Assembly (NCBI GenBank): GCA_014904985.1 | Contig: MU129122.1 | Span: forward strand, 7,216-71,215 | Length of the DNA: 64,000 bases | Direction: 5' to 3' | Source of the DNA: Hydnum rufescens UP504 | Taxonomy: Eukaryota > Basidiomycota > Agaricomycetes > Cantharellales > Hydnaceae | In this document: piece by piece, positions 60 to 58,394 of the stretch | Layout: every line of letters starts with the position of its first letter | Numbering within the stretch: the stretch's first letter is position 1 | Notes under the pieces: generated by a model | What the model was told of the DNA's origin: nothing | The model's database searches: none | What the model saw: the letters and a program-made list of their open reading frames with translations, nothing else | Made by a program: the position numbers and the translations under genes

Positions 60-285
60 CTTATGACGCACACACCCGCCAGCAGCGGGGGTGTGGTTGC
101 GGGGTCGAGGGTCGTGTGGGTGGTCATGTGTGTCCGCCTTAGGATGTGGCTGCGTAGTTTGCAAAATCTCAATGCCGGCAACTGCCGGGATACTCTCAAG
201 AAGCGCCCAAGGCTGGCGCTACAAGCACAGTACATCATTAATAGTAAGCATGGTAGGGATGCAAAATAAAATACTATATAATAAA
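60..285 (-). other. exon-like segment of the left, divergent arm
   Basis: The segment contains an H1 hairpin (CACACCCGCC...GGGGGTGTG, 69-98) just upstream of a splice donor, as in the plus-strand arm. Its reverse complement aligns with 780-980: shared landmarks include GACTGTGCTTGTAG-like and GGGCGCTTCTT strings in the same order. It is therefore the mirror copy of the first exon-like segment on the other side of the fold-back element. No convincing protein is encoded. Confidence 0.5.
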
Positions 286-290
286 ATATT

Positions 291-748
291 TGGTCCAATA
301 AAATTCTAAGAAGAAGAACGATAATGAGTCAGAGCTCAATAAGCGTGATATGGCTAAATTGCACAAGTGGATCTTGGGCATTTCTCTATGCATCAGACAT
401 GGCTGAATTTGAATATTTGTCTTATCGGCTATATATGCACTCTACGATGGACGACATTATATTGGACGTTCTGCATTTTCAATTCTTTCACGCCGTCCAA
501 TTCCCTAAATAGGGATATTCGCCAAGGCGTGAAAAATTGACAACAATGCCAGAAGTCCAATACTTTATACTCGCTCGTCCATCGGGGAGGACGTCGCCAT
601 ATAACCATCCGAACTTCGACTATTCAAATTTCAGCCAATTCTGATCATAGAAAAAGTGGCCAAGTCCAACTTTGCCATTACCCATATCACGCCTTCATGA
701 GCTTCCTGACCTCTTATCCTTCTTCTTCTTAGAATTTTATTGGACACA
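291..748. mobile_element. 458-bp fold-back (MITE-like) element with 5-bp target duplication
   Basis: The ends are inverted (TGGTCCAATAAAATTCTAAG at the left; the reverse complement of the right end reads TGTGTCCAATAAAATTCTAAG). They are flanked by ATATT at 286-290 and 749-753. Pairing continues inward almost to the centre: GCGTGATATGG near 340 pairs with CCATATCACGCC near 687, and the segment near 445-495 pairs with that near 525-590. The whole element can thus fold into one long imperfect hairpin. No transposase is encoded, so it would be non-autonomous. Its position between two divergent exon/intron arms is notable, because the inverted symmetry continues outside the element. Confidence 0.75.
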
Positions 749-753
749 ATATT

Positions 754-980
754 CGTACTCACTATTGAGTACTGTTATCTTCGCATCTACAGCTTAGCTA
801 TTAATGCTGTGGGACTGTGCTTGTAGGCGTCAGCACTGGGCGCTTCTTACAATACATGGCAATGCTTTGCGTTGAGTTTGCATCTTCCCTCACATCTCTG
901 CAACCAAAACAAGCCAAACACCGCCTGGAAACGGCAGCACACGACACAACACCCGCGCTGCCGGGGTGTGGTCACAATAG
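754..980 (+). other. exon-like segment starting the plus-strand arm
   Basis: This is the mirror partner of 60-285. It ends with an H1 hairpin (945-972) followed by an ATAG/GTGAGT donor at 981. No supported ORF runs through it. If the locus is transcribed, this would be the first exon or leader. Confidence 0.45.
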
Positions 981-1098
981 GTGAGTGTTTCCCCTAGTAG
1001 ATACAACGGGGGGGTCGCAAAAAGCGCAGGCAGCGAACAGTGCTCTTTTTGCGCGCCCCTTTTTGAACTTTTACTAACATATTTGTGTATTTTTCTAG
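981..1098 (+). other. intron with H2 hairpin
   Basis: GTGAGT donor, imperfect H2 hairpin at about 1017-1056, TTTTACTAACAT branch-like site near 1069 and TTTTTCTAG acceptor. Length 118 nt. The intron call rests on signals only; no transcript data. Confidence 0.6.
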
Positions 1099-1348
1099 AT
1101 TGAACCTTGGGGTCCAGGCACAACAAAAACACGCGACAGCACGACGGGCCAAATGGCAATGCCCCAAGCACAAACAGGCATGCCAAACGACAACAACGTA
1201 CAGCAATGGCCAACGACGCCAATATGCGCCAACACCCCCAACGACCGCCTACGTACCGCGCCAACGACGCGGCATATCTGTGCCAACGATGTGACAATGG
1301 CACCAACCAACAAGTTCCCAGGAACCCACACCCTGCCACAGCGGGTGT
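1099..1348 (+). other. low-complexity exon-like segment (Asn/Gln/Arg rich)
   Basis: Between two intron-like segments lies a CAACG/CCAACGAC-rich stretch. One plus frame is open from 1107 across the segment and would give an Asn-, Gln- and Arg-rich peptide ending in an H1-encoded HPATAGVW string. The base pattern resembles the minus-strand exon 6585-6346, its counterpart in the opposite arm. H1 lies at 1326-1353. The composition looks like a short-period repeat more than a folded protein. Confidence 0.35.
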
Positions 1349-1471
1349 GTGGTCTATATATAGTTATCAGTCCCACCCAGTAGCTACAGCCACGCAAAAA
1401 GAGCAGTTTAAATGCTTTGCTCTTTTTGCTGTGGCTGTAATTCTAACTAATTTACAAGTTTATGTCTGTAG
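1349..1471 (+). other. intron-like segment with H2 hairpin, donor unclear
   Basis: H2 at 1395-1430, ATTCTAACTAAT branch site near 1440 and TCTGTAG acceptor ending at 1471. The 5' end overlaps the H1 hairpin and no canonical GTRNGT donor is visible; GTCTAT near 1348 is the nearest candidate. Confidence 0.45.
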
Positions 1472-1668
1472 GTTCGACATCCCCTGCAACACGAATACCG
1501 ACGCTACAAACCCCCCCCCATCAACCCCCCTTTCGACGCCCCGAACAACAGGGCCCCGTGCACAGCCCCCATACGACACTGCCGTACGAACTGCCGTACC
1601 GTACAGAGCCAGAGCCCATGGCTCATACCCCACACACCGCTTGCAGCGGGTGTGGTTGTACTATAACC
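1472..1668 (+). other. exon-like segment with H1 hairpin
   Basis: It starts GTTCGACATCCCCTGCAAC and is matched on the minus strand by 6237-6093 (GTCTCAATGCCCCCGCAAAC), both containing ACGAATACCGA. H1 is at about 1630-1656. The pairing supports a shared origin of the two arms. Confidence 0.4.
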
Positions 1669-1828
1669 GTACATGTTTTTTTTATTTTTTATTTCTATTC
1701 TTGTGCACAAAAAAGGCAGCATAACCGGCTGCTTTTTTGCACCTGCACTACTGTCTGCATATCATTTTTTTATGTTTATTTCTATTATTTCCTGAATTCA
1801 GAATCCTCGCGTTATTCTCTTCCATAGG
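1669..1828 (+). other. intron-like segment with variant H2 hairpin
   Basis: GTACATG donor-like start, a variant H2 (AAAAAAGGCAGC ... GCTGCTTTTTT) at 1705-1740, and acceptor candidates CAG at 1801 or TAG at 1828. The boundary is uncertain. Confidence 0.4.
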
Positions 1829-2171
1829 ATTTGTAATTGTTTTTTTTTTTTTCCGAACGAGACGTGGTCGAACCATACGTTATATTACTGAATGATATCT
1901 CCCCACATGGTATATGTTTATATGACCGACTCTCTCTTCTACATAGGATTGTGCCCAAAAGACATACCTGGTCCCTGACTGCCACTGCTGCGGACTGGTG
2001 GGTTTTGTGTGGGTACGGTGTGGTATATGCGGGCGCATGATCTGCATAACAACCATCCCTCTCTTTGGCAGCATCTCTGGGGGGGGCGGGGGATAATCAT
2101 GTATCTATTGTTTACTTAATATTCTTCTTCTACTGGTTTTAATTTCTTTACTAACAACTTTATTATTCTAG
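1829..2171 (+). other. spacer with one short intron-like tail
   Basis: No H1 or H2 hairpin is clear here. Bases 2101-2171 look like an intron without H2: GTATCT donor, TTTACTAAC branch site, TTATTCTAG acceptor. A poly-T tract lies at about 1840-1853 and a G-run near 2080. No gene recognised. Confidence 0.3.
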
Positions 2172-2333
2172 GTTATGGCTTTGTCCCAGGTGCCAACGAG
2201 GAGGCCCGACCTGCCACAAATGAGGACCTGCGGAGCAAGCCCCCCAGAACAACAAAGGAGACCGGCGAACAACAATGCCAAACGAAGGGACGAACCACAC
2301 ACCCACAGTAGTGGGTGTGTGGTTCTATACAAG

Positions 2334-2423
2334 GTATGTAAATGTACCCCGCACAAAAAGAGCAGCGACAGCTGCTCTTTTTGTGTCGCTTTTATTTTTT
2401 GAACTAATAATATTTTATTCTAG
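2334..2423 (+). other. array intron 1 (90 nt)
   Basis: AAG/GTATGTAA donor, H2 at 2352-2384, GAACTAATAATA branch region, TTATTCTAG acceptor. Confidence 0.65.
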
Positions 2424-2537
2424 GTATCGCCACAAATGAACCCGCGAAGCAAGCCAGAATGACAGCACCCCACAAACGACACACCACACGAAGAGAAACC
2501 ACACACCCGCTACTGCGGGTGTGTGGTTTTATACTCG

Positions 2538-2631
2538 GTATGTAATGTACCCCCAACGGTGCAAAAAGAGCAGCAAAAGCTGCTCTTTTTGCATCGTTTT
2601 TCATTTTTTAACTAATAATTTTTCATTCTAG
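2538..2631 (+). other. array intron 2 (94 nt)
   Basis: GTATGTAATG donor, H2 at 2560-2592, TAACTAAT branch site, TCATTCTAG acceptor. Confidence 0.65.
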
Positions 2632-2748
2632 GTATCCTCACAAATGACAACCTGCGGAGCAAGCCCACCACGCCCGCAAGGGAGACTGGCGAATGACGAC
2701 ACACCACGAACCACACACCCACAGTAGCGGGTGTGTGGTTCTATCTAT

Positions 2749-2841
2749 GTATGTAACGCACCCCGACAATGCAAAAAGAGCAGCGAAAGCTGCTCTTTTT
2801 GCGTCGCTTTTAATTTTTTAACTAATGATTTCTTATTCTAG
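2749..2841 (+). other. array intron 3 (93 nt)
   Basis: GTATGTAACG donor, H2 at about 2770-2803, TAACTAATG branch site, TTATTCTAG acceptor. Confidence 0.65.
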
Positions 2842-2969
2842 GTATTGTCACAAATGGAGACCCACAAAGCAAGCCCCCCCAGAACAACAACACCCCCGCG
2901 AACGACGACGCACCACACAAAGAGAACCACACACCCACAGTAGCAGGTGTGTGGTTCTATCTATGCAAG

Positions 2970-3062
2970 GTATGTAACACACCCCGACGACGCAAAAAGA
3001 GCAGCAAAAGCTGCTCTTTTTGCATCGCTTATAATTTTTTAACTAATGAGTTCTTATTCTAG
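2970..3062 (+). other. array intron 4 (93 nt)
   Basis: AAG/GTATGTAAC donor, a 14-bp perfect H2 stem at 2992-3023 with an AAAA loop, TAACTAATG branch site, TTATTCTAG acceptor. Confidence 0.7.
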
Positions 3063-3189
3063 GTATTGTCACAAATGGAGACCTGCGAAGCAAGCCCCCC
3101 AGAACGACAACACTCCCGCGAACGACGATGCACCACACGAAGAGAACCACACACCCGCAGTAGTGGGTGTGTGGTTCTATCTATGCAAG

Positions 3190-3283
3190 GTATGTAACAC
3201 ACCCCCAACGACGCAAAAAGAGCAGCGAAAGCTGCTCTTTTTGCATCACTTATAATTTTTTAACTAATAGTTTTTTATTCTAG
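3190..3283 (+). other. array intron 5 (94 nt)
   Basis: AAG/GTATGTAAC donor, H2 at about 3213-3245, TAACTAATA branch site, TTATTCTAG acceptor. Confidence 0.7.
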
Positions 3284-3409
3284 GTATCACCACAAGTGAA
3301 GACCCGCGAAGCGAGCCCCCCTGGAACGACAACATCACCATGAATGATGATGCGCGAACAAAGAGACGAACCACACACCCGCAGTAGCAGGTGTGTGGTT
3401 CTATACCAG

Positions 3410-3509
3410 GTATGTAATGTAGTGCACCCCCAACAGCGCAAAAAGAGCTGTGAAGGCAGCTCTTTTTGCGTTGCTTTAACTTTTACTAATCTAAAATTTT
3501 GTATTCTAG
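3410..3509 (+). other. array intron 6 (100 nt), H2 stem changed but still paired
   Basis: CAG/GTATGTAATG donor, H2 at 3437-3471 in which GAGCAGC/GCTGCTC has become GAGCTG/CAGCTC on both sides, TTTACTAAT branch site, GTATTCTAG acceptor. Confidence 0.65.
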
Positions 3510-3646
3510 ATCTTCCTTCCCCCCAAACGAGTATGTGCCCAAAAACCCCCAAACCCACTGTACGGAAAACCGGCAGTCGAGGGTACGTGACCCCGGGCAA
3601 AAACGAGTACCACACACCCACCAATGCGGGTGTGTGGTACTACAAG

Positions 3647-3759
3647 GTATTTTTTTTTTAACTTTCTACATCTACAGTGATGCCAAAGGAGCAGCGCAAG
3701 CTGCTCCTCTGGCATCACTTCGAATTTTTTTACTAATGTATGTTATCATTCCATTCTAG
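3647..3759 (+). other. array intron 7 (113 nt), strongly diverged but paired H2
   Basis: AAG/GTATTTTT donor, a hairpin at 3677-3718 whose stem GTGATGCCA...TGGCATCAC and AGGAGCAGC/GCTGCTCCT differs from the usual H2 yet pairs over 18 of 19 positions, TTACTAATG branch site, CATTCTAG acceptor. Confidence 0.65.
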
Positions 3760-4152
3760 GATCAAATTTAAAGGTCCCGAAATGACGACAGAGAGCCACA
3801 ACCCCTGAATGACCTGCACAACAGTGAACCACCAAGCCACGCCGCCCAAATGGCCACCAACAAGCTGGGCGAGCCCCCATCCAAGCCCCAAGGCAGAAAT
3901 GCCCAGTACCACATAGCCCCCTCAGCGGGGTGTGGTCTTTTATTTTTATTTTTATTTTTATTTGCAAGTGGCGCAAAAAGAGCAGCGATAGCTGCTCTTT
4001 TTGTGCTGCTTTGAATTTCCTCCTTACTGTTTTGCTGCCTGACACCCCAGCAACATGCCGCCTGAACCCGCATCTGAACACCGGATGACCCCCCATCCTA
4101 AGTCCTGAGGAAACAATGAACGGTACCACACACCTGCCCTAGTGGGTGTGTG
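3760..4152 (+). other. last plus-arm segment, two H1 hairpins and one H2
   Basis: H1 hairpins lie at about 3905-3941 and 4120-4153, H2 at about 3972-4006. A possible intron end (CACCCCAG) is at 4050, and a GTATGT donor-like sequence starts at 4153. From 4030 onward the sequence is part of the left arm of the large inverted repeat. No protein recognised. Confidence 0.4.
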
Positions 4153-4555
4153 GTATGTTTTTTTAATTGAATTTTTAAATAAATAAATACATTAGTTCAT
4201 AAGAACAAAACACGAGACTGCCAAATGAAAACAGCCCCCACCTAGTGTATATAGTGATAATGATAATAAATAAATAACTATAAATGAAACACCAGAGGGG
4301 GAATATAATAATAATTACTGGTGATTATCCCCGATAAGCCCGCATGGCCCGCTGTCCTGCAAGTCTGAGATTCTCTCCAAGTCCAGTTTCAGCCAATTTT
4401 TGGCCAATTTTTGGCCATTTCGGCCAATTCTGGTCCAGGAGGTGAAATCATAAAAAATGGCCATTTCGGCCGGAATAGTGATGGGACCTACTTAGGTACC
4501 ATTATCTGCCCCGGAAGTGGTACCTAACTAGGTAGGCTTAGGTGACTGACCAAGG
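4030..4555 (+). repeat. left arm of a large inverted repeat
   Basis: The arm runs from TTTTGCTGCC to GACTGACCAAGG and matches the reverse complement of 4951-5456 with scattered differences. It includes the mirrored H1 hairpin, an AT-rich block, and an inner dyad (GGGACCTACTTAGGTACC ... TACCTAACTAGGTAGGC). With its partner it could form a stem of about 500 bp around a 395-bp loop. No target duplication was identified. Confidence 0.8.
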
Positions 4556-4608
4556 TGGGTGTACATCCGTATTCAACTGTTCTCAAAGGCAAACCCGACA
4601 TACCAATC

Positions 4609-4968
4609 ATGGTGTCGGAATGTATGCCTAATTCAGAAAAACAACTTCGATTGTGGGGGTTTGAACGCCTCAAGGACAATCAAATCAAGCGGTTTTTGAC
4701 AATGACGAGGAGGGGCAACTCTACCAAGTCATTGGCGGCCATCGCCAGAGACCCTGAGGACCGAGAGTGCCTTCGTCAAGACATGGGATGGCTGCACTCT
4801 GGGGTGTATCAAAGGCCTTCATCTTTGGCAAGTAATCCAGTGGCATTCCCCAAGTGGAGCTTGTGGATGACAGGAAAGGAGCCGCCCCGTGTTCGCCCAA
4901 TCGAGATGTCGAACTCGAAGCGGAAGGCGACCGAGTCCATGGAAAAGGCACCTTGGTCAGTCATCTAA
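4609..4968 (+). CDS. hypothetical ORF in the loop of the inverted repeat
   Basis: The loop between the two arms (4556-4950) is the only part of this block without hairpins. It is spanned by a plus frame open from 4555, whose first ATG is at 4609 (119 residues). The predicted peptide is basic and unstructured-looking toward its end (NSKRKATES). The last six codons lie inside the right arm. I recognise no domain. An overlapping minus frame (4951-4721) is also open, so this may be a captured gene fragment or chance. There is no splice or promoter evidence. Confidence 0.2.
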   Translation: MVSECMPNSEKQLRLWGFERLKDNQIKRFLTMTRRGNSTKSLAAIARDPEDRECLRQDMGWLHSGVYQRPSSLASNPVAFPKWSLWMTGKEPPRVRPIEMSNSKRKATESMEKAPWSVI

Positions 4969-5456
4969 GCCTACCTAGTTAGGTACCACTTTTGGGGCAG
5001 ATAATGGTACCTAAGTAGGTCCCATCACTATTCCGGCCGAAATGGCCATTTTACAGTCTGCACCTTCTGGCTCAGAATTGGCCAAAATGGCCGAAAATTG
5101 GCCAAAACTGGGACTTAGAGAGCATCTCAGACTTGCAGGACAGTGGGCCATGCGGGCTTATCGGGGATAATCACCAGTATTTATTATTATATTCCCCCCT
5201 CTAGTGTTTCATTTATAGTTATTTATTTATTATCATTATCACTCACCCCGGGTGGGGGCTGTTTTCATTTGGCAGTCTCATGTTTTTTTATCAACTTATG
5301 TATTTATTTATTTAAAAATTCAATTAAAAAAACATACCACACCCGCTAGGGCAGGTGTGGTACCATCCATTGCTTCCTCGAGACTTTGGACGGGGGGTCA
5401 TCTGGTGTTCAGATGCGGGTTCAGGGGGCATGTTGCTGGGGTGTCGGGCAGCAAAA
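4951..5456 (-). repeat. right arm of the large inverted repeat
   Basis: Reverse-complement partner of 4030-4555, beginning CCTTGGTCAGTCAT and ending GCAGCAAAA. The mirrored H1 hairpin is at about 5336-5365. On the minus strand a GTATGTTTTTTT donor follows it, as in the left arm. Confidence 0.8.
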
Positions 5457-5982
5457 TATTAAGTTAAAAAACAGACCTTTTGTACCACACCCCTGCTGAG
5501 GGCAGGCTGGTCAGTCACATAGGGGACCTAATTTAGGTACCACTTTCGGGGCAGAAAATGGTACCTAATAGGTCCCCCAAACCTTACGGCCGAAATCAGG
5601 CTATTCCAATTCAGTTTTTGGGCCATCTGTTGGCCAATCCATGGCTGTGCTAGATTATATACTTATTTATTATTATTTGTTTACTATTTATTATTATTAT
5701 TATTATTACTACTATTATTATATACATATTACACTATATACATATTATCCCCCCCAGGGTCTGCCACCACAGGGGGGGATGGTTGATGCGGGTCACGCAC
5801 CTGCATATACCCACCACACCCGCTGCAGCAGGTGGGGTTCACACACCCCGATTGGGGCCGGCTCCATTTGGGCACTCCCTCAAGGGGGCCGGTTTTCATT
5901 CGCAGGCTCGTTCGTGGTTATCATTGGCGATGTCATTCAGTGGATTTGTATTTGGGAGTTCGCCCGGGTTCTGGCCTAGGAT
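5457..5982 (-). other. minus-arm exon-like segment with dyads and AT-rich tract
   Basis: It holds an H1-like half hairpin near 5484-5510, a third copy of the AGGTACC dyad (GGGGACCTAATTTAGGTACC ... GGTACCTAATAGGTCCCC, 5524-5577), an AT-rich (TTA)n tract at about 5655-5750, and an H1 hairpin at about 5810-5836. No gene recognised. Confidence 0.4.
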
Positions 5983-6092
5983 CTAAAGAAATAATTAAGG
6001 AAACATTAGTTGAATATTAATGCAGCGCAAAAAGAGCAGCTTATGCTGCTCTTTTTGCACCACAAGAAGAAATTTATAAAAATAAAACATAC
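5983..6092 (-). other. minus-arm intron (110 nt) with H2
   Basis: On the minus strand: CAG/GTATGTTTT donor at 6092, H2 at about 6025-6058, CAACTAATG branch site, TTCTTTAG acceptor at 5983. Confidence 0.65.
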
Positions 6093-6237
6093 CTGCTAGT
6101 ACCCCACACCCGCTGCGGCAGTGTGGGGTACTGAGCCCGTGTACATACGGCGGTTCCTACGGATGTCCGTCATTTGGGCGTCAATACAGGGGGCACGGGG
6201 GTTTTGCATCGGTATTCGTTTGCGGGGGCATTGAGAC
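6093..6237 (-). other. minus-arm exon-like segment with H1
   Basis: H1 (CCCCACACCCGCTGC...GCAGTGTGGGG) at about 6100-6132. It resembles plus-arm segment 1472-1668. Continued in phase from 6585-6346 it meets a TGA after 18 codons. Confidence 0.4.
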
Positions 6238-6345
6238 CTGCAAGATAAAGTTTTTAAATTAGTTAGAATCAAAAACCACGCAAAAAGAGCAGCTTTCGCT
6301 GCTCTTTTTGTGTGGCTGTAGGTACTGAGGAGGGCGGGGACTTAC
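6238..6345 (-). other. minus-arm intron (108 nt) with H2
   Basis: On the minus strand: CAG/GTAAGTCC donor at 6345, H2 at about 6280-6312, ATTCTAACTAAT branch site, ATCTTGCAG acceptor at 6238. Confidence 0.7.
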
Positions 6346-6585
6346 CTGATATAGAACCACACACCCGCCGGGGCGGGTGTGTGATTCCGTGCCCTCGTTT
6401 GGTGCGTTGCCGTGGGCTTTGGTGCGGTCGCGTCGTTGGCCCATTGCTGTGTCACATTGGTGTATCGTGTTGCCGTGTATCACGTTGCTGCATCGCGTTG
6501 CCGTGTGGCAGGTATTTGAAGGATTGGAATTGAATAATTTGGATTCATTTGAGGAGGTAGTTGGGTCCTGAAGCAGAATATACAT
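6346..6585 (-). CDS. possible first coding exon of the minus arm
   Basis: An ATG at 6585 opens an 80-codon exon that ends exactly at a GTAAGT donor and includes an H1 hairpin (about 6354-6386). The peptide is Thr/Asn/Arg-rich, with CAACACGAT-type short repeats in the DNA, and no domain is visible. The next exon closes the frame after 18 codons. A short peptide or a non-coding transcript are both possible. It faces the inverted-repeat centre, convergent with the plus arm. Confidence 0.3.
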
Positions 6586-10046: not shown

Positions 10047-11560
10047 ATGTCACAATTTGCTGCCTCTTCAATTGCACCGCACATTGGACCTGTCGCCACT
10101 GATGCCCGACTCCTCGCGCCTTCACTCCTGCCTCGACTCGGCTTGGGACAGGGGGAACTGCCTCTGAGTTGAACACTGGACATCCAGTCCATCATGAGGA
10201 GCAAAGGGATCATGAAATGGGGAGTGGTCCACATACTGCCTCTTCGCAGCATTCTGCCCCGGAAGGGGTGAGTGACTATAGTTCAGGTTCGAGGTCTTCG
10301 GAGGGCTCTGGGGAGTCACTCGTTCTCGTTCGCGCTCTCCTCGATATCGTTCGCGTTCTCGATATCATTCGCATTCGCGATATCGTTCGCGCTCTCGATA
10401 TCATTCGCGCTCTCGTCAGTATCGTTCGCGTTCTCGGTACCGTTCGCGTTCTCCTCGAGATCGATCGCGTTCTCGATATCGTTCACGCTCTCCCCGAGAT
10501 CGTTCGCGTTCTCGCGATTCCCACTCTCGCGTTAACTATCATTCGGAGGGTGGTGATGCCTCCCGTTCTCATGCTTTTAATGCGTACAACGATCACCTTC
10601 AACATCCTGGTGATCCGTCAAATTCGTCTCATTGGTCTGTACCAGAGCAGCAACCGCAGTCTCCGCTCCGGGTCCTGGATGGGACCATGGACACTCGGTG
10701 CCTGTCTTCCAGAGAGGAAGAGGTGTATCAGCACCAGGGTCTTCTGCGAATGTGACTAACTCTGCTCATCCTAGCATGTGGCAGGGGAGTTCTCAAGTAC
10801 CGGGGAATTCTGATTGGCGAGGAGATTCTAGAGATTTTCAAGGTCGTGGTCGTGGGCACGCCATGCATGTGGATCGTGGTGGTCAGGATTATGGATCTTG
10901 GGCTGGTGTGGTTAGCGGACCCGCCATTAATGTCCCCCTACCTGAGCCACGGGTAGTGGCAGTCCCGGTACTGGCTTATGACTCGGTTCCAGTGGGTCGC
11001 TGGTTTGCCATCTTCCTGAACCCTGTCCCAGAAGGTTTCCAAGAACCTGAAGTTTGGCTGGATCTGTACCCACAAGTAATCGCAGCTCGTAGAGAGCGTA
11101 ACAAGAAGGGGTCTCAATACAGCTACTGTTGAAAAGGAGGCAGACACGTGATGAGTTGAAGGTTGTTTTGAAGGGATGGGGTGCAAAGCGCGGGGCTGAG
11201 TGTGTGGCCCACACGATTGATGAGCCAAATGCACCATCTAAGCGATACACTGGATGGAAGGATTTGGAATACCTCGATCAGGTGTATGCCCACGCTCGCA
11301 GCCAGGAGGAACTGGAGGCTCTTGTGGCCATGGCGCCTCCTTTGATCAAGGGGCACGGCGGGGCCCGGTATGGTGAATTATTCCTCAACTACGACGTGCA
11401 TCCACCCGTCGCTGGACCGCCAGTCCCCAGGGCTGAGCGCTTGCGTCATCTCCACATCGTTGACTTTGACATAGCCTGGTTGGTGCGCGGCTCGCCCAAT
11501 TGCCGCCGAAACCGTCGACCTTCCGCTGCGTCGAATGGAGATGATGATGCGTGCCCATAG
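10047..11560 (+). pseudogene. frameshifted gene with an Arg-Ser repeat domain
   Basis: Plus-strand coding signal shifts frame several times. MSQFAASS starts at 10047. An acidic/Gly-Ser stretch follows in a second frame (10169-10315). A perfect RS domain (RSRSRSPRYRSRSR and so on) lies in a third frame from about 10318 to 10520. A Gly-rich segment with RGRGRG and a globular part follow to 11130, then an Arg/Lys-rich part ends in DDDACP at 11560. RS domains are typical of splicing factors, but no RRM is visible, so function is not assigned. At least three indels are needed, either decay or sequencing error. The gene ends five bases before a 25-N gap. The long Ile/Val/Arg ORF over the RS repeat is an out-of-frame shadow. 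Confidence 0.45.
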
Positions 11561-16190: not shown

Positions 16191-18776
16191 TTACGAAGAG
16201 CTCTGTGGTAGACCGGTAGACACCATCGATGAGTAGGGGAGGCGAAATTTCACAGAGTAATCCGTCCATTTTGAGACGTGGGGAGGGCTCTCCGATGACG
16301 ATGCATCCTTCCCCGACAGAGAGGAAGAAACATCGGAGTCATCTTCCGAATCTACCCTGACCTTAGCAGTGTTTACTTCTGTTTGAGAGTAAGACGCAAC
16401 GCACGCACCCTCCAAGTTCTGGTTATCCATCAATTCCAAGCGATAGCGCTGGTAGATCGGGACTCGGTGGAGGGAGATCCCGGAATCCACGATGATGCTC
16501 AGTCCATCGTCGTTGGCCGAGATCAACGTTGCTTGTTCGAGGCTAGGAAGGACTAAATCGAACACGCCTCCCCTGTAAACCAGTAATTTGGGTGGCATAA
16601 TCCAGTAGAGTACTGTCGGAAGAGTACGTACGATTCCTTGGTGGACGCCCAAGTTTGTTCGATAGGCACGGTACAGGCCGCGCTGTATAGTGTCATGATT
16701 AAGTTCACTGTGGCCGACTCGATCGTCGTGATCCCAGCAGCGCTTCAAGATTCGCAAAACTAAAGGAAAATGACTTCCTCCTTCGATGGTCCAAAGGGAG
16801 GCCGATGGTCCAATATAGCACGGATAAGGTGTCCCTCTTTTGAGAGTTCATGGTAGGGCTCCTGGTCAAACAAGATCTACAGTGAATGGAGGATTACAAG
16901 TTAGACAAAAGCGCAGCGTACGGCGAGAATGCCTCCCACCTGAATGCAAGTGCATCCATACGCATAGATGTCGTCCCAACAGTTCGAGTGCTTTCGTCGA
17001 GAAGTTCCGGAGCCAGAAATCGCAGTGACCCGCCGAAGTTGACGATGTATGGCCAGTAGGTCCCCCATCAAGAATGATAGACAGTCCAAAATCACAAATG
17101 CTCCCTCTTCCTCTCCATCAATCAGCACGTTCCGCTGAACATATCAATTCATCAGCGAAGCACCATCGCTCTGTGTATTCACCATACCCCTTTAAGATCA
17201 CCGTGGATGATTCGAGGCTTGTGTTCATGCAAGTACTGTAATCCTAATGCAACATCGGCACACTGTAAAGATCAAGCTCAGTTCGGGATGCCCCCCCCCA
17301 TATTTGAGTGAAACCACATCAATGTAAACGCACGATAATCTCTCGATTGACACTTGGATTCTTTTCTAGAAAGCTTAGGACATCACCGTGAACGTACGAA
17401 ATTGAAACGAGACCAGGCCCTTCGGGTTCTTCAGTATGACCTAATAATCTCACCACGTTCTCATGACGCAATTGGGCCCATATTCGCATTTCTATATGCA
17501 GATGCTACCCTATCGTGAACGGAAGATCACAGTGAAACTGTCAGATAAAATTACCTTGCGGAGTTTTCGTTGGACTGTGGACTCATCCGTATACGAAGCA
17601 TGAAGCACTTTGAGAGCGACCTACGGAATCGGTTGTTAGGAGATGCACCCTCCGGGAGCTATGAATTGAAAAGAACACCTGAAGAGTTCGGTGAGAGTCC
17701 TCGGAGGTGGCAGAGAGCAAGCTGCCTCTCCAGACTGAGGAGTACCCTCCTCTAGCCATGGGTGTTGAGCCTAAACGAACAATACGGCCAGTCAAGTTGG
17801 GAGTTTCGAAGGGACTGGCTTGAGGATTGGAAAATGGTGGGCTAGATTGTGAGCTTTGTCCCGAAGCTTCTGCGGAAGGACCTGTAATCGCAACACGTGG
17901 TAGAATGGATGTGGCTTCGTCTATTCCGGTAGAAGCCTCTTTAGGACGAGTGGGAGTTGAGGACAGATTGGCAGGTTGCACGGGCTGCCTTTCATCGGCT
18001 TGGCCAGACAAGAGGTTCCTGGTTTGGGATATTGAACGATGATTTGGATCGTAGGGTGTCGGGGATTCGATGGGCTCTGAGGCAATTACATTGGAGGCGT
18101 TAATTTCGCGACCTCGAGGGAGTGCACCACCATTCTTCTCAGCGTCCGTCGCGGCAGGAGGTACTGCACCATTCGCATTGGGCGACTGCATTGGGGGAAG
18201 TCGTGGGAGATCTTTCTCCGGTAAGGTTGGTGCTGAGCCAATAGATGCTATTTTCCCTTTCGTGCCTGCTAGGGTTACTAAATCGGCTGGTTGAGACAGA
18301 GAAGCGGACTCGTTTTTCCATCTTTTCCGGTCCGTGAGTGAGATCTTCTTCGCGTTAGGGAACTGGATAGCAAATTGGTGCTGCATGGATTCTACACCAG
18401 CCGCGTTGCTTGGGGAAAACAGATCGTTGTCCTCGAGCCAGTGTCGTGAGGGCGGTTTGACCCAAGATCCCCCGAAGCCTTGATGAAGCATTCCGAAGTT
18501 GATGCAAGTCCACCACCAAGGGTAGTTGTAGAAATCCAAGCGGGGAACTGTAATATTATTGAGAAGGTCTATGACGTGACGGAAATCCAGGGTAGCAAAT
18601 GTGGTGGCCATGTCATAATAGTGTGGTTCCCCGTGGCCGAGCTTAGAGCGATCGGTGGAGAATTGAATTGCACACAGGCTGCTATCGGACCACCTCTCTG
18701 CCCGCAACCAGACAATTGGCACCCTCTGGTTCTGGATGTGGACACTCATGAACAGATAGCTGGTCTGGAAGTTCAT
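16191..18776 (-). pseudogene. K1: TKL-type protein kinase copy, kinase core frameshifted
   Basis: Exon 1 (18776-17679, 366 codons, starts MNFQ) is fully open: an amino-terminal domain with VHIQNQRVPIVWLRAERW and WWW near residue 90, a Pro/Ser-rich linker, then the kinase glycine loop LGSTPMARGGYSSVWRG. Exon 2 (17620-17555) carries the VALKVL lysine and exon 3 (from 17504) the alpha-C glutamate in HLHIEMRIW and the LRHENVVRLLG strand. In the catalytic exon, single-base losses near 17100 and 17040 put DFG and APE out of frame, and the C-lobe (16757-16191) has further shifts. The damaged half adjoins the poor-quality region, so sequencing error is as likely as decay. Confidence 0.7.
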
Positions 18777-22133: not shown

Positions 22134-24501
22134 TCAGAGAGCAAGGCGCAACGCACCCTCGACGTTCTGGTTATCCATCAATTCCCAGCGATAGCGCTGA
22201 TAGATCGGGACTCGGTGGAACGAGGTCGAAGAATCCACCACAATTCTCAGTCCATCGTCGTCGACCCACATCAGCTTTCCTTTTTCAACGCCAGGAAGGC
22301 ACATAAATCGAACACGCCTCCCCTGTAAACCAATAATTTGAGTCCATAATCCAGTAGAGTACAGTCGAGAAAGAGTACGCACGATTCCTTGGTGGACACC
22401 CAAGTTTGTTCGATAGGCACGGTACAGGCAGCGCTGTATAGTGTCGATGATTAAGTTCAATGGTGGCCGACTCGATCGGTCGTGATCCCAGCAGCGCTTC
22501 AAGATTCGCAAAACCGAAGGAAAAGTGACTTCCTCCTTCGATGGTTCAAACGGAGGCTCATGATTCGATATAGCACGTATAAGGGGTGCCTCTTTGGACA
22601 GTTGGTGGAAGGGCTCCTGGTCAAACAAGATCTATGGGGAACAGAGGACCACAAGCTACATACGAAGCATGCCGCTCGGCAAGAATGGATCGCACCTCAA
22701 TACAAGCGCATCCATAGGCATATATGTCCGTCTCCACAGTTCTAGTGTTTTCATCGAGAAGTTCGGGTGCCAGAAATCGTAGCGAGCCGCCGAAGTTGGA
22801 TGATGTATGGCCAGTAGGTTCCCCATCAAGAATTATAGACAGTCCAAAATCACATATACTCCCTCTTCCTTCTCCATTGACCAGCACATTTCGCTGAGCA
22901 TGTAAATTCATCAGTAATGCACCATCGCTCCGTGTCTTCAGCCGTACCCCTTTAAGATCACCGTGGATAATTCGAGGCTTGTGTTCATGCAAGTATTGTA
23001 ACCCCAACGCAACATCGGCACACTGTGAAGTTCAAGCTCAATTGGGGAGGGCCCCATATTCGAGTGAAAGTAGACCCATGTGAACGTACGATAACCTCTC
23101 GATTAACACTTGGATTCTTCGCTAGAAAGCTCAGGACATCACCGTGAACATACGAGATTGAAACGAGGCCAGGCCCTTCGTGTTCTTCAGTATAACCTAA
23201 CAACCTCACCACATTCTCGTGATGCAATTGGGCCCATATTCGGAGTTCTACATGCAGATGCTATGCTTATCGTGAACAGAAGATCCACGGTGCAACTATC
23301 AGATAAAATTACCTTGTGGAGTTTCCGTTTCACTGTGGACTCATCTGTATATGAAACGTGAAGCACCTTGAGGGCGACCTAGGGCATCGGTTGTTAGCAG
23401 ATGCACCCCCCGGGAGCTATGAATTGAAAAGAGCACCTGAATTGATTGGCGAGGGTCGTCGGAGGTGGCAGAAAGCAAGCGGCCTCTCCAGACTGAGGAG
23501 CACCCTCCTCTGGCCATGGGTATTGAGTCTGAACGAACAATGCGGCCAGTCAAGTTGGGAGTTCTGGAGGGACTGGGTTGGGGATCGGAAAATGGTGGGG
23601 TAGCTTGTGGCTCTTGTCCCGAAGCTTCTGCGGAAGGGGTCAAAATCACGACACGTTTCAAAATGGACGTAGCTTCACCTATTCCCGTGGAAGCCGCATT
23701 CGGAGTGGGAGTTGAGGATGGATTGGCGGGTCGCACGGGTCGCCTCTCCCTGGTTCGGGATATTGAACGATGATGTGGATCGTATGGTGTCGTGGATTCG
23801 ACAGGCTTTGAGGCAAGTACATTGGGGCGGTTGATTTCGCGACCTTGAGGCGGTTGATCACCATTCTTCTCAGCGTCGGCTGCAGCAGCAGGCACAGCAC
23901 CATTCACATTGGGCAACTGCACTGGGGGAGGTCGTTGGAGATGCACCTCCGGTAAGGTTGGTGCTGAGCCAATATGTGCTATTTTCCCTTTCGTGCCTGC
24001 TAGGGTTAAATCGGATGCTTGAGACGGAGAAGCGGGCTCGTTTGTCCATCTCTTTGGGTCCCTGAGTGAGACCTTTTTCGCGTTAGGGTGCTGGATAGCA
24101 AATTGGCGCTGCGCGGCTTCTATAGAGGCCGTGTGCATTGCAAACAACGTGAGGGCATCCTTGATCCAGCCTGGTGAGGGCGGTTTCACCCAAGATCCCC
24201 CGAAGCCTTGATGAAGCGTTCCGAAGTGGATGCAAGCCCACCACCAAGAGTACGTCAAAGTCCTGGGGACTACTACATTAATATTATTGAGAAGGTCTAT
24301 GACGTGACGGAAATTCAGGGTAGCAAATGTGGTGGCCATGGTGTAATCGTCGTGTGGTTTCCCGAGCTTGGAGGGATCGGCGGAGAATTGAATAGCACAC
24401 GGGATGCTATAGGACGGCCTCTCCACCCGAAACCAGATAATTGGCACCCTCTGGTTCTGGATGTGGACACTCATGAACAGACAATCAACCTGGAAGTTCA
24501 T
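22134..24501 (-). CDS. K2: intact TKL-family protein kinase, six exons, 690 aa
   Basis: Exons: 24501-23437, 23378-23313, 23260-23090, 23022-22948, 22893-22696, 22631-22134. Every exon is a multiple of three and every intron is phase 0 (52-67 nt, GT..AG). Residues 1-310: unknown amino-terminal domain (MNFQVDYL-like start, QNQRVPI, WWWACIHFG) and a Pro/Ser/Thr-rich disordered linker. From about 320, a kinase fold: glycine loop (PMARGGCSSVWRG), VALKVL lysine, HLHVE glutamate, HGDLKG-RN catalytic loop, DFG, LAPELL, TDIYAYGC, and CWDHDRSSRP near the C-lobe end. All catalytic residues needed for phosphotransfer are visible. HGD replaces HRD, common in basidiomycete TKL kinases. The tail after the kinase domain (YRAYRTNLGVHQGIVRTL) is conserved among copies. 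The start is chosen at MNFQ because it is shared by K1, K2 and K7. Substrate and location are unknown. Confidence 0.75.
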
Positions 24502-55978: not shown

Positions 55979-58394
55979 TCAGCTTTTCCTTGTGTTAGAG
56001 AATAAGGGAATAAGGCGCAACCCACCCTCGACGTTCTGGTTCTCCATCAATTCCCAGCGATAACGCTGATAAATCGGGACTTGGTGGAATGAAGTCGAAG
56101 ACTTCACCACAATGCTCAGTCCATTGACGTCGACCCACATCAGTATGGCCTGTTCAACCCCAGGGAGGCACATAAATCGAACACGCTTCCCCTGTAAACC
56201 AATATTTTGGGTGCACAATCCAGTAGAGTACTATCCAGGGAGTGCACATACAATTCCTCGATGGACGCCCAAGTTCTTTCGATAGGTACGGTACAGGCAG
56301 CGCTGTATAGTGTCGATGATTAAGTCCACTGATGGCCGACTCGATGGGTCATGAGACCAGTAGCGTTTTAAGACTTGCAAAACCGAAGGGAACGTGACCT
56401 CCTCATCCGATGGTTCAAAGGGAGGCCGATGGGGATCTAATATAGCACGGATAAGGGGTGCTTCTTCGGATAGCAGGTGATAGGGCCCCAGGTCAAACAA
56501 GATCTGCATTGAATACCGACTAAAAGTCAGACACAAAGCGCAGGGTATCGGCGAGAATGTATCCCACCTGAATGCAAGTGCATGCATAAGCATATATGTC
56601 TGTCTGCACGGTTCTAGTGCGTTCGTCAAGAAGTTCGGGAGCCAGAAACCGCAATGTCCCGCCGAAATTCGATGACGTATAGCCTGTAGGTCCCCCATCA
56701 AGAATTATGGACAGTCCAAAATCACAAATACTTGCTCTTCCTTCTCCATCGACCAGCACATTCGGCTGAGCATATCAATTCATCAGTAAAGCACCAGCAC
56801 TCCGTGTATTAAAGCATACCCCTTTAAGATCGCCGTGTATGATTTGAGGTTTGTGCTCATGCAAGTATTGTAATCCTAGTGCAACATCGGCACACTGTAA
56901 AGATCAAGCTCAGTTCGGGATGCGCCCCAAATTCGGGTGAGAGCCTATCAATGTAAACGCACGATAATCTCTCTATTGACGCTTGGATTCTTCGCTAGAA
57001 AGCTCAAGACATCACCGTGAAGGTAGGAGATTGAAACGAGACCAGGCCCTTCGGGTTCTTCAGTATGACCTAGCAATCTCACCACGTTCTCGTGACGCAA
57101 TTGGGCCCATACTCGCATTTCTACATGCAGATGCTAGCCCTATCATGAATGGAAGATCCATGGTGCAACTATCGGATAAAATCACCTTGTGGAGTTTTCG
57201 TTTCACTGTGGACTCGTCTGTATACGAAACATGAAGCACCTTGAGGGCGACCTATGGAGTCGGTTGTTAGGAGATGCACCCTCCGGGAGCTATGAATTGA
57301 AAAGAACACCTGAAGAGTTCGGTGAGGGTCGTCGGAGGTGGCAGAGATCAAGCTGCCTCCCCAGACTGAGGAGTACCCTCCTCTGGCCATCGGTGTTGAG
57401 CCTAAACGAACAATACGGCCAGTTAAGTCGGGGGTTTCGGGGGGACGGGTTGGGGATTGGCAAATGGTGGGGTTGTTTGTGGGCCTTGTCCCAAAGGTTC
57501 CGCTGAAGGGGCTGTAATCGCAACACGTTGCAGGATGGATGTGGCTTCGTCTATTCCAGTGGAAGTCGGAGTGGGAGTCAAGGATGGATTGGCAGGTTGC
57601 ATGGGTCGCCTTTCATCGATTTGGCCAGATAAGGTGTTCCTAGTTGGGGATATTGAACGACGATGCGGATTATACGGTGTCGTGGATTCGACAGGCTTTG
57701 AGGCGAGTTCATTGGAGCGGTTGATTTCGCGACCTCGAGGGGGTCCACCACCATTCTTTCCAGCGTCGCCGGTCGCAGCAGCAGGTGCTGCACGATTCGC
57801 ATTGGGCGACTGCATTGGGGGAAGTCGTGGGAGACCTTTCTGCGGTAAGGTTGGTGCCGAGCCAATATGTGCTATCTTCCCTTTCGTGCTTGTTAGGGGT
57901 AAATCGGATGCTTGAGACAGAGAAGCGGGCTCGTTTTTCCATCTCTCCCGGTCCCTGAGTGAGATGTTTTTTGCGTTAGGGTACTGGATAGCAAATTGGC
58001 GCTCAACGGATTCTACATCGGTCGCGTAGCTTGGGGAAAACAAGGAGCTGCTCTTGAGCCAGCCTGGTGAGGGAAATTTACCCCAAGATCCCCCGAAGCC
58101 TTGATGAAGCATTCCGAAGTTGAGGTAAGCCCACCACCGATCGTAGAGATAGCCATCTGGGTGAGGTACATTAATATTATTGAGAAGGTCTAGGACGTGA
58201 CGGAAATTCAGGGTAGCAAATGTGGTGGCGATAAAGTAATTGGGGCGTGGTTCCCCGAGCTTAGAGCGGTCGGCGGAGAATTGAATAAAACCCGGGCCCC
58301 TGTCGGACCACCTCTCCGCCCGCAACCAGACAATTGGCACCCTCTGGTTCTGGATATGGACACTTATGAACAGATAGCTGGGCTGGAAGTTCAT
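55979..58394 (-). pseudogene. K7: kinase copy with one frameshift before the glycine loop
   Basis: Exon 1 is open from MNFQPSYLF (58394) through QNQRVPIVWLRAERW, RWWAYLNFG and the linker to PPKPPT at 57423, where a one-base loss shifts the frame just before LTGRIV. PMARGGYSSVWGG (57390 on), VALKVLHVS, HGDLK, MLVDGEGRASICDFG (56759-56520), LAPELLDER, TDIYAYACTCIQ and SHDPSSRPSVD (56701-56231) are present. A further shift separates exon 6 from the tail (56218-55979). Close to functional; errors in base calling are possible. Confidence 0.65.

Follow-up and report, generated by a model that had tools for sequence, protein, structure and literature searches.

In snoRNA host ('inside-out') genes, the exons are unconserved and each intron carries one structured RNA. 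Long inverted arms with internal tandem repeats are found in foldback-like elements such as Galileo and Tetris, multiple transposase-binding sites being described for the long repeats of Galileo (PMC3688188, available part), and many introners show hallmarks of DNA transposons (PMC9860276, available part). Among the KDZ (Kyakuja-Dileera-Zisupton) transposons, 7-bp target duplications and CA..TG ends are given for Laccaria Kyakuja-1/2_LB and 8 bp for Zisupton in the available text of PMC12730594; an 8 bp duplication is given for Cryptococcus KDZ1, and 4-8 bp for KDZ2 and KDZ3, in that of PMC12810828.

The array described here lies in a 64,000-nucleotide stretch of Hydnum rufescens DNA (contig C214; 'the window' denotes this whole stretch) and is the right arm of an interspersed, apparently non-coding DNA transposon, referred to below as the array element. 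Like KDZ transposons, this element has CA..TG ends and target duplications of 7-8 bp, and its end sequence is common to KDZ-coding elements of the same genome, but no transposase was found in it, and it contains a central palindrome as well as intron arrays. Its arms, which are long and inverted and have tandem repeats inside them, recall Galileo and Tetris, whereas here the arms hold spliceosomal introns and the ends match KDZ elements. Introners are likewise mobile DNA carrying splice signals (predicted in the array element), but the introns considered here are internal parts of a larger element, and none of four isolated copies of the intronic hairpin, H2, lies in an ordinary gene. The combination of unconserved exons with one structured unit per intron (H2, predicted) is that of snoRNA host genes, although the array element is mobile, its exonic hairpin, H1, is conserved, and no Rfam match at gathering score was obtained. 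Non-autonomous DNA transposons, arms of the foldback type and introns that derive from transposons are already known; an element that encodes no protein, has a palindromic core and bears selected intron arrays in its two arms was not found among the titles and abstract openings of the open-access literature.

An earlier note had described seven consecutive exon-plus-intron units at 2172-3759. The seven units are real, and donor, H2, branch site and acceptor are present in every intron at the junctions then proposed (Table 1), but the extent was drawn too narrowly, further units lying on both sides. Six of the seven introns start with the donor GTATGT and the last with GTATTT, the branch ACTAAT and the terminal TTCTAG being present in all seven; Tandem Repeats Finder (TRF) reports 2215-3509 with a period of 221, 6.0 copies and a score of 1261. 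Homology with most complete copies elsewhere starts at about 2120-2136, and a breakpoint near 2132 cuts the unit to which the acceptor at 2171 belongs.

Table 1. Features of the array element and neighbouring fragments in the window (position 1 is the first nucleotide of the window).
Feature	Position	Strand	Basis or remark
Degraded central palindrome of window copy	198..848	.	76% self-complementary
Left arm, inverted relative to complete copies	849..1809	+	Copy comparison; weak units near 1017, 1394
Weak left-arm units, near 1017 and 1394	about 949-1440	+	Unit-model and H2-site matches
Truncated first right-arm unit, branch and acceptor (acceptor at 2171)	2133..2171	+	Read; copy comparison
Array of seven exon-plus-intron units, right arm	2172..3759	+	TRF period 221; junctions read; aligned to copies in L009-L028
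H1 preceding intron 1	2292..2325	+	Read; inverted repeat I18
Intron 1	2334..2423	+	GTATGT..ACTAAT..TTCTAG; 90 nt
H2, intron 1	2354..2383	+	H2 pattern search
H1 preceding intron 2	2497..2528	+	Read; inverted repeat I19
Intron 2	2538..2631	+	94 nt
H2, intron 2	2562..2591	+	H2 pattern search
H1 preceding intron 3	2708..2741	+	Read
Intron 3	2749..2841	+	93 nt
H2, intron 3	2772..2801	+	H2 pattern search
H1 preceding intron 4	2924..2957	+	Read
Intron 4	2970..3062	+	93 nt
H2, intron 4	2993..3022	+	H2 pattern search
H1 preceding intron 5	3144..3177	+	Read
Intron 5	3190..3283	+	94 nt
H2, intron 5	3214..3243	+	H2 pattern search
H1 preceding intron 6	3368..3401	+	Read; inverted repeat I14; exon folded
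Intron 6	3410..3509	+	100 nt
H2, intron 6	3439..3468	+	H2 pattern search, 3 mismatches
H1 preceding intron 7	3607..3640	+	Read
Intron 7	3647..3759	+	Donor GTATTT; 113 nt
H2, intron 7, diverged	3677..3718	+	Read by eye; looser pattern at 3682; folded
H1/H2 copy without recognisable donor	about 3905-4060	+	Read by eye
Outermost right-arm H2	3974..4003	+	No GTRNGT donor by eye; branch and acceptor pattern match
Right terminal repeat of window element, ending CCAAGGTG at 4557	4454..4557	-	Inverted repeat I2; element ends
Right-end fragment, second copy, reversed	4949..5463	-	Inverted repeats; copy comparison
Left-end fragment of a copy	5503..6415	+	H2 at 6028-6057, 6281-6310; splice signals on minus strand
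Minus-strand units	about 5975-6340	-	Pattern matches

A search of the genome (63.2 Mb, 539 contigs) with the array as query returned at least 347 matches (best 40 of 1500 candidates), and 20 loci were examined first and 11 further loci later, the KDZ loci and isolated H2 sites being among the total. Across the 20 loci, the better copies consist of a left terminus, window 1809-1 reversed, and window 2133-4557 with the right terminus, a complete copy thus running from the left terminal repeat through a short minus-strand array, a long central palindrome and a long plus-strand array to the right terminal repeat. Target duplications flank six end pairs (7 bp in L010, L012 and L016; 8 bp in L019, L021 and L023), the elements so delimited being 4432-7739 bp long with CA..TG termini; the right terminus occurs at 357 places genome-wide at no more than 2 mismatches, and the left/right end pattern at 117 exact places. 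A free-standing satellite, one of the possibilities raised earlier, is not supported: the array forms one arm of a transposon of 4.4-7.7 kb that is bounded by terminal repeats and flanked by target duplications. Neither the central palindrome nor the outward direction of the two arms nor the KDZ-like ends figured in the earlier description.

The window copy itself is rearranged: its core and left arm are inverted, their junction with the right arm falls within an intron, and pieces of other copies lie beyond it (Table 1). Between the two facing right ends, a 391-bp segment (4558-4948), an open 140-codon stretch with no Pfam match, matches the interior of the KDZ-coding locus L035 (6588-6977) at 97.4% identity. 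Elsewhere in the window, long open stretches (17586-18776, 23344-24501, 57426-58394 (minus)) share a similar start, MNFQ..SVHIQNQRVPI, have no Pfam match and are a predicted local gene or pseudogene family; a tandem repeat at 10326-10514 (period 18/39/57) falls within long open frames, including one with many RSRS-like residues.

The affiliation of the array element was sought at its ends. KDZ domains give at least 154 matches in the genome (best 150 of 584 candidates), and at L034 a 981-codon ORF with a KDZ domain (E 8.2e-56) has its stop about 0.6 kb from a terminus. With this one L034 terminus set against both ends of the array element, identity is 83% over 71 bp for the left end (E 1.5e-14), 83% over 69 bp for the right end of L010 and 81% over 70 bp for the right end in the window. 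The first 100 bp of the KDZ end recur at 22 places at 95% identity or more, among at least 41 matches (best 40 of 338 candidates); at 10 of the 22 (C499, C300, C1, C424, C146, C309, C67, C299, C157 and C131; lists compared by eye) a KDZ domain lies about 1.5 kb inside and faces the end, at C191 it lies on the outer side in the other orientation, and at the other 11 there is no KDZ domain nearby among the matches listed. A second subfamily (L021, L023) has just its first 12 bp in common with the L034 end, which weakens its link to KDZ. These comparisons show, at the level of sequence, a mobile element with KDZ-type ends.

H2 is absent from both KDZ loci, L034 and L035 (9 kb each), and no transposase gene was found in the array element, judged by ORF length in copies with both ends: the ORFs of at least 170 codons wholly inside such copies have 204 (L016), 182 (L021) and 171 codons (L023), others overlapping an end, and stop-free stretches of 170-240 codons exist in some copies. 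Given KDZ-like ends and no transposase gene found, the array element is filed as most likely a non-autonomous KDZ-type element. Membership of the hAT superfamily, first suggested by a CAGG start and 8-bp duplications, was set aside as less probable on the KDZ link and the 7-bp duplications; none of 90 hAT dimerisation matches in the genome was tied to array-element ends in a by-eye comparison. A P-type or Galileo affiliation, prompted by the 7-bp duplications, was likewise set aside in view of the KDZ link. Upstream of the transposase gene, tandem repeats also occur at L034 (7243-9001, period 324, 5.5 copies) and L035 (4764-6036, periods 117 and 243), unrelated to H2 as far as seen.

Palindromic cores of 642-964 bp with arms 87-98% alike are present in L009, L010, L012, L016, L017, L023 and L028; L032 has a core of 650 bp (86%), L040 one of at least 347 bp (96%), L030 one of only 138 bp, and the window copy one of 704 bp (76%). 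When palindromes of at least 400 bp with at least three H2 nearby were taken and H2 within 1.7 kb counted, 19 such cores were found in 18 of 24 loci, and the splice signals around them point outward in 126 cases and inward in 2, with 17 lacking an assigned direction; both inward cases come from L018, which has a neighbouring core at a distance of 2.6 kb. The arms are thus long and inverted and contain tandem repeats in opposite orientation, as in foldback-like elements. On C4 (L038, L040), a more diverged family with a core that differs for the most part and one exon without H1 keeps the order H1, donor, H2, branch, acceptor.

Conservation of the splice signals was assessed in repeat units drawn from the first 7 kb of the window and 24 loci. 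Among 944 hits, 288 were close to full length without overlapping; removal of 11 with scores below 60, including the two weak window units at 949 and 1321, gave 277, and the 95 less similar ones among these were kept (mean pairwise identity 65%). The branch and acceptor pattern CTRAY..YAG occurs in 87 of the 95 units (dinucleotide shuffles: mean 5.4, maximum 15; antisense: 0), the donor GTRNGT in 62 (mean 10.9, maximum 22; antisense: 5), with 33 units lacking it, and both together in 55 (mean 0.6, maximum 5; antisense: 0). As the unit model had been built from window units including their splice signals, the test was repeated with sites found by H2 only: CTRAY..YAG is present on at least one strand at 288 of 322 (8 on both strands; mononucleotide shuffles: mean 57, maximum 74) and absent at 34, a donor accompanying it at 253 (mean 6.8, maximum 19). 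Across the genome, CTAAC is found 1120 times at 16-20 nt beyond the H2 arm, and its scramble CATAC 143 times, a control probably contaminated by the donor read backwards and hence conservative.

Outside CpG columns, mean conservation in the 95 units is 0.95 for the acceptor, 0.93 for H2, 0.91 for the branch, 0.91 for H1 and 0.80 for the donor, the last being no higher than the T-rich linker between H2 and branch (0.79); the H1-donor linker (0.69), the branch-acceptor spacer (0.66), the donor-H2 linker (0.53) and the exon (0.47-0.49) are less conserved. Variation within the signals is that tolerated by the spliceosome: the donor has A63/G28 at +3, T46/A42 at +4, G80 at +5 and T82 at +6, the last branch base is C56/T35, and the base preceding AG is T88/C6. 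Such alignments show donor, branch and acceptor to be, by all signs in the sequence, selectively conserved with spliceosomal degeneracy (GTRNGT, CTRAY, YAG) while exons drift, and the proposal that splice signals and hairpins rather than protein are maintained is upheld. At 236 sites, measured with the last donor before H2, the intron has a median length of 102.5 nt (86-130 nt), and the branch A lies a median of 19 nt from AG (5-95% range 14-23 nt), ranges typical of fungal introns. A foldback-type DNA array whose splice-like motifs arose by chance or belong to a DNA-binding site would account for palindromes with near-symmetric stem changes (see below) and for the long inverted arms; it is improbable in the face of those typical spacings and of variation that obeys GTRNGT, CTRAY and YAG, with antisense counts of 5, 0 and 0 of 95.

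As the earlier note had claimed, the reading frame is lost after splicing. In 18 arms spliced in silico no frame is kept: the longest stop-free stretch is 83-222 codons and in none exceeds the maximum of that arm's own 200 shuffles (177-352), intron and exon lengths in this test being off where the donor rule took GTGTGT inside H1. First-exon ORFs of 77-130 codons in L010, L011, L017 and L018 are closed in most other copies. Spliceosomal introns usually belong to coding genes, the one argument for a decayed protein-coding gene with many introns; with no spliced arm above its shuffles, first-exon ORFs that vary between copies and exons that are the least conserved part of the 95 units, such an origin is hardly credible.

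H2 itself occurs at 6162 places genome-wide at no more than 3 mismatches, 2112 of them exact (backwards control: 0), and a scan of viral contigs gave no match. So many places, with a complete intron in every unit, could be read as an introner-like element whose H2 introns multiply and insert into ordinary genes. The target duplications, however, flank the 4.4-7.7 kb element and not the intron, making the former the mobile unit; all four isolated H2 sites that were read of the 6162 (two on C2, one on C1, one on C4) sit in array-type units, none in an intron of an ordinary gene; and the nine H2 of the window at no more than 3 mismatches all fall within 2354-6310, with 0 in 100 shuffles. The spread of introns by tandem duplication of an introner, as once suggested, is accordingly not supported, and an introner is very improbable, though with so small a sample of isolated sites an occasional H2 intron may sit in a host gene. 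In a pattern test, donor, branch and acceptor were found at three of the four isolated sites and the donor only at L037, where branch and acceptor are plausible by eye.

Whether H1 and H2 act as RNA or as DNA bears on a further alternative, the strongest one: an inside-out gene in which the product is the H2 hairpin RNA, one per spliced intron, and the exons are mere carriers. One H2 per intron and exon sequence unconserved apart from H1 are in keeping with such a gene, as are the predicted RNA folds, those of five of the seven introns and one exon each being more stable than all of their own 200 shuffles. The H2 loop is GNRA in 42 of 84 units on the spliced strand vs 2 of 84 antisense, and at 131 vs 4 of 264 raw H2 sites on the spliced and the other strand; no H1 loop is GNRA (0/83). 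Changes at the loop-closing H2 pair, in CpG context, went to G.U 41 times vs 5 times to A.C, and one of the outer H2 pairs reads G.U in 30 of 95 units, with a single unit showing A.C. From the GNRA loops and the G.U excess at the loop-closing pair, H2 could work as RNA; these biases may partly reflect CpG decay or shared ancestry.

Against the inside-out gene, the H2 stems show little RNA-type G.U excess outside CpG. Watson-Crick pairs are kept in 1147 of 1281 cells of H1 and 1390 of 1605 of H2, with some double changes, for example from A-T to C-G (8 units), and on a tree of 277 units changes from Watson-Crick outside CpG went to G.U vs A.C 27 vs 17 times in H1 and 24 vs 21 times in H2; at H1 CpG pairs, 60 changes led to G.U and 67 to A.C. 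Pairing in a one-strand RNA should favour G.U, so that the near-symmetric changes make the palindromes look mainly like double-stranded sites, and H1 and H2 may be double-stranded DNA sites. The exonic H1 is conserved as well, and the window has no Rfam match at gathering score, and matches below the cut-off in L010 were discounted as generic hairpin families. An inside-out gene is on these grounds unlikely. In array units of L009-L033, stem CpG positions decay to TG/CA equally on both sides; C-to-T decay at CpG points to methylation, which suggests that the host methylates array elements. In minimum-energy folds of five introns, branch and acceptor stay unpaired in four and the donor in three, and with the splice sites mostly free in these predicted folds H2 may shorten the effective intron.

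Among the readings offered earlier, a multi-intron non-coding RNA fits best. The reading preferred here, and judged moderately probable as a whole, is that the array is the right arm of a non-autonomous KDZ-type transposon with spliced, outward-running non-coding transcripts. Transcription would start near the palindromic core, whose symmetry would provide two mirror-image start regions, and run outward through each arm; the H2-bearing introns would be spliced out of the arm transcripts, the products being non-coding RNAs that end near the terminal repeats. Selection on the splice signals makes it highly likely that the arms are spliced when transcribed, and action of a KDZ transposase in trans on the array element is likely; for a promoter in the core and outward transcription, to which the orientation of the splice signals points, the balance tips only slightly in favour.

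Splicing signals in nearly every repeat, pointing outward, suggest that splicing matters to the spread of the element or to its escape from silencing. Stalled spliceosomes have been reported to set off small-RNA silencing in Cryptococcus (Dumesic 2013, as cited in the available part of PMC6643885). It can tentatively be proposed that H1 and H2 are repeated double-stranded DNA sites for transposition, which could, for example, be bound by the transposase, and that the introns keep transcripts harmless or the arms active: an intron around each H2 would keep transcripts properly spliced, no stalled spliceosomes would feed RNA silencing, and the arms would stay transcribed. Possible but doubtful is a class of transposon with splicing-dependent spread, protein-less, transcribed outward both ways and with introns kept by selection, in which the spliced non-coding RNA or the act of splicing would shield the element from silencing or keep its ends accessible. 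If true, a cut-and-paste transposon without any coding capacity would require splicing in cis.

With its right end at hundreds of places (357), this protein-less transposon appears to keep about a dozen introns per copy in predicted working order despite exon drift. Selection on splicing without coding is unusual, and is here measurable on many replicate introns; it bears on how fungi distinguish transposon RNA from their own RNA.
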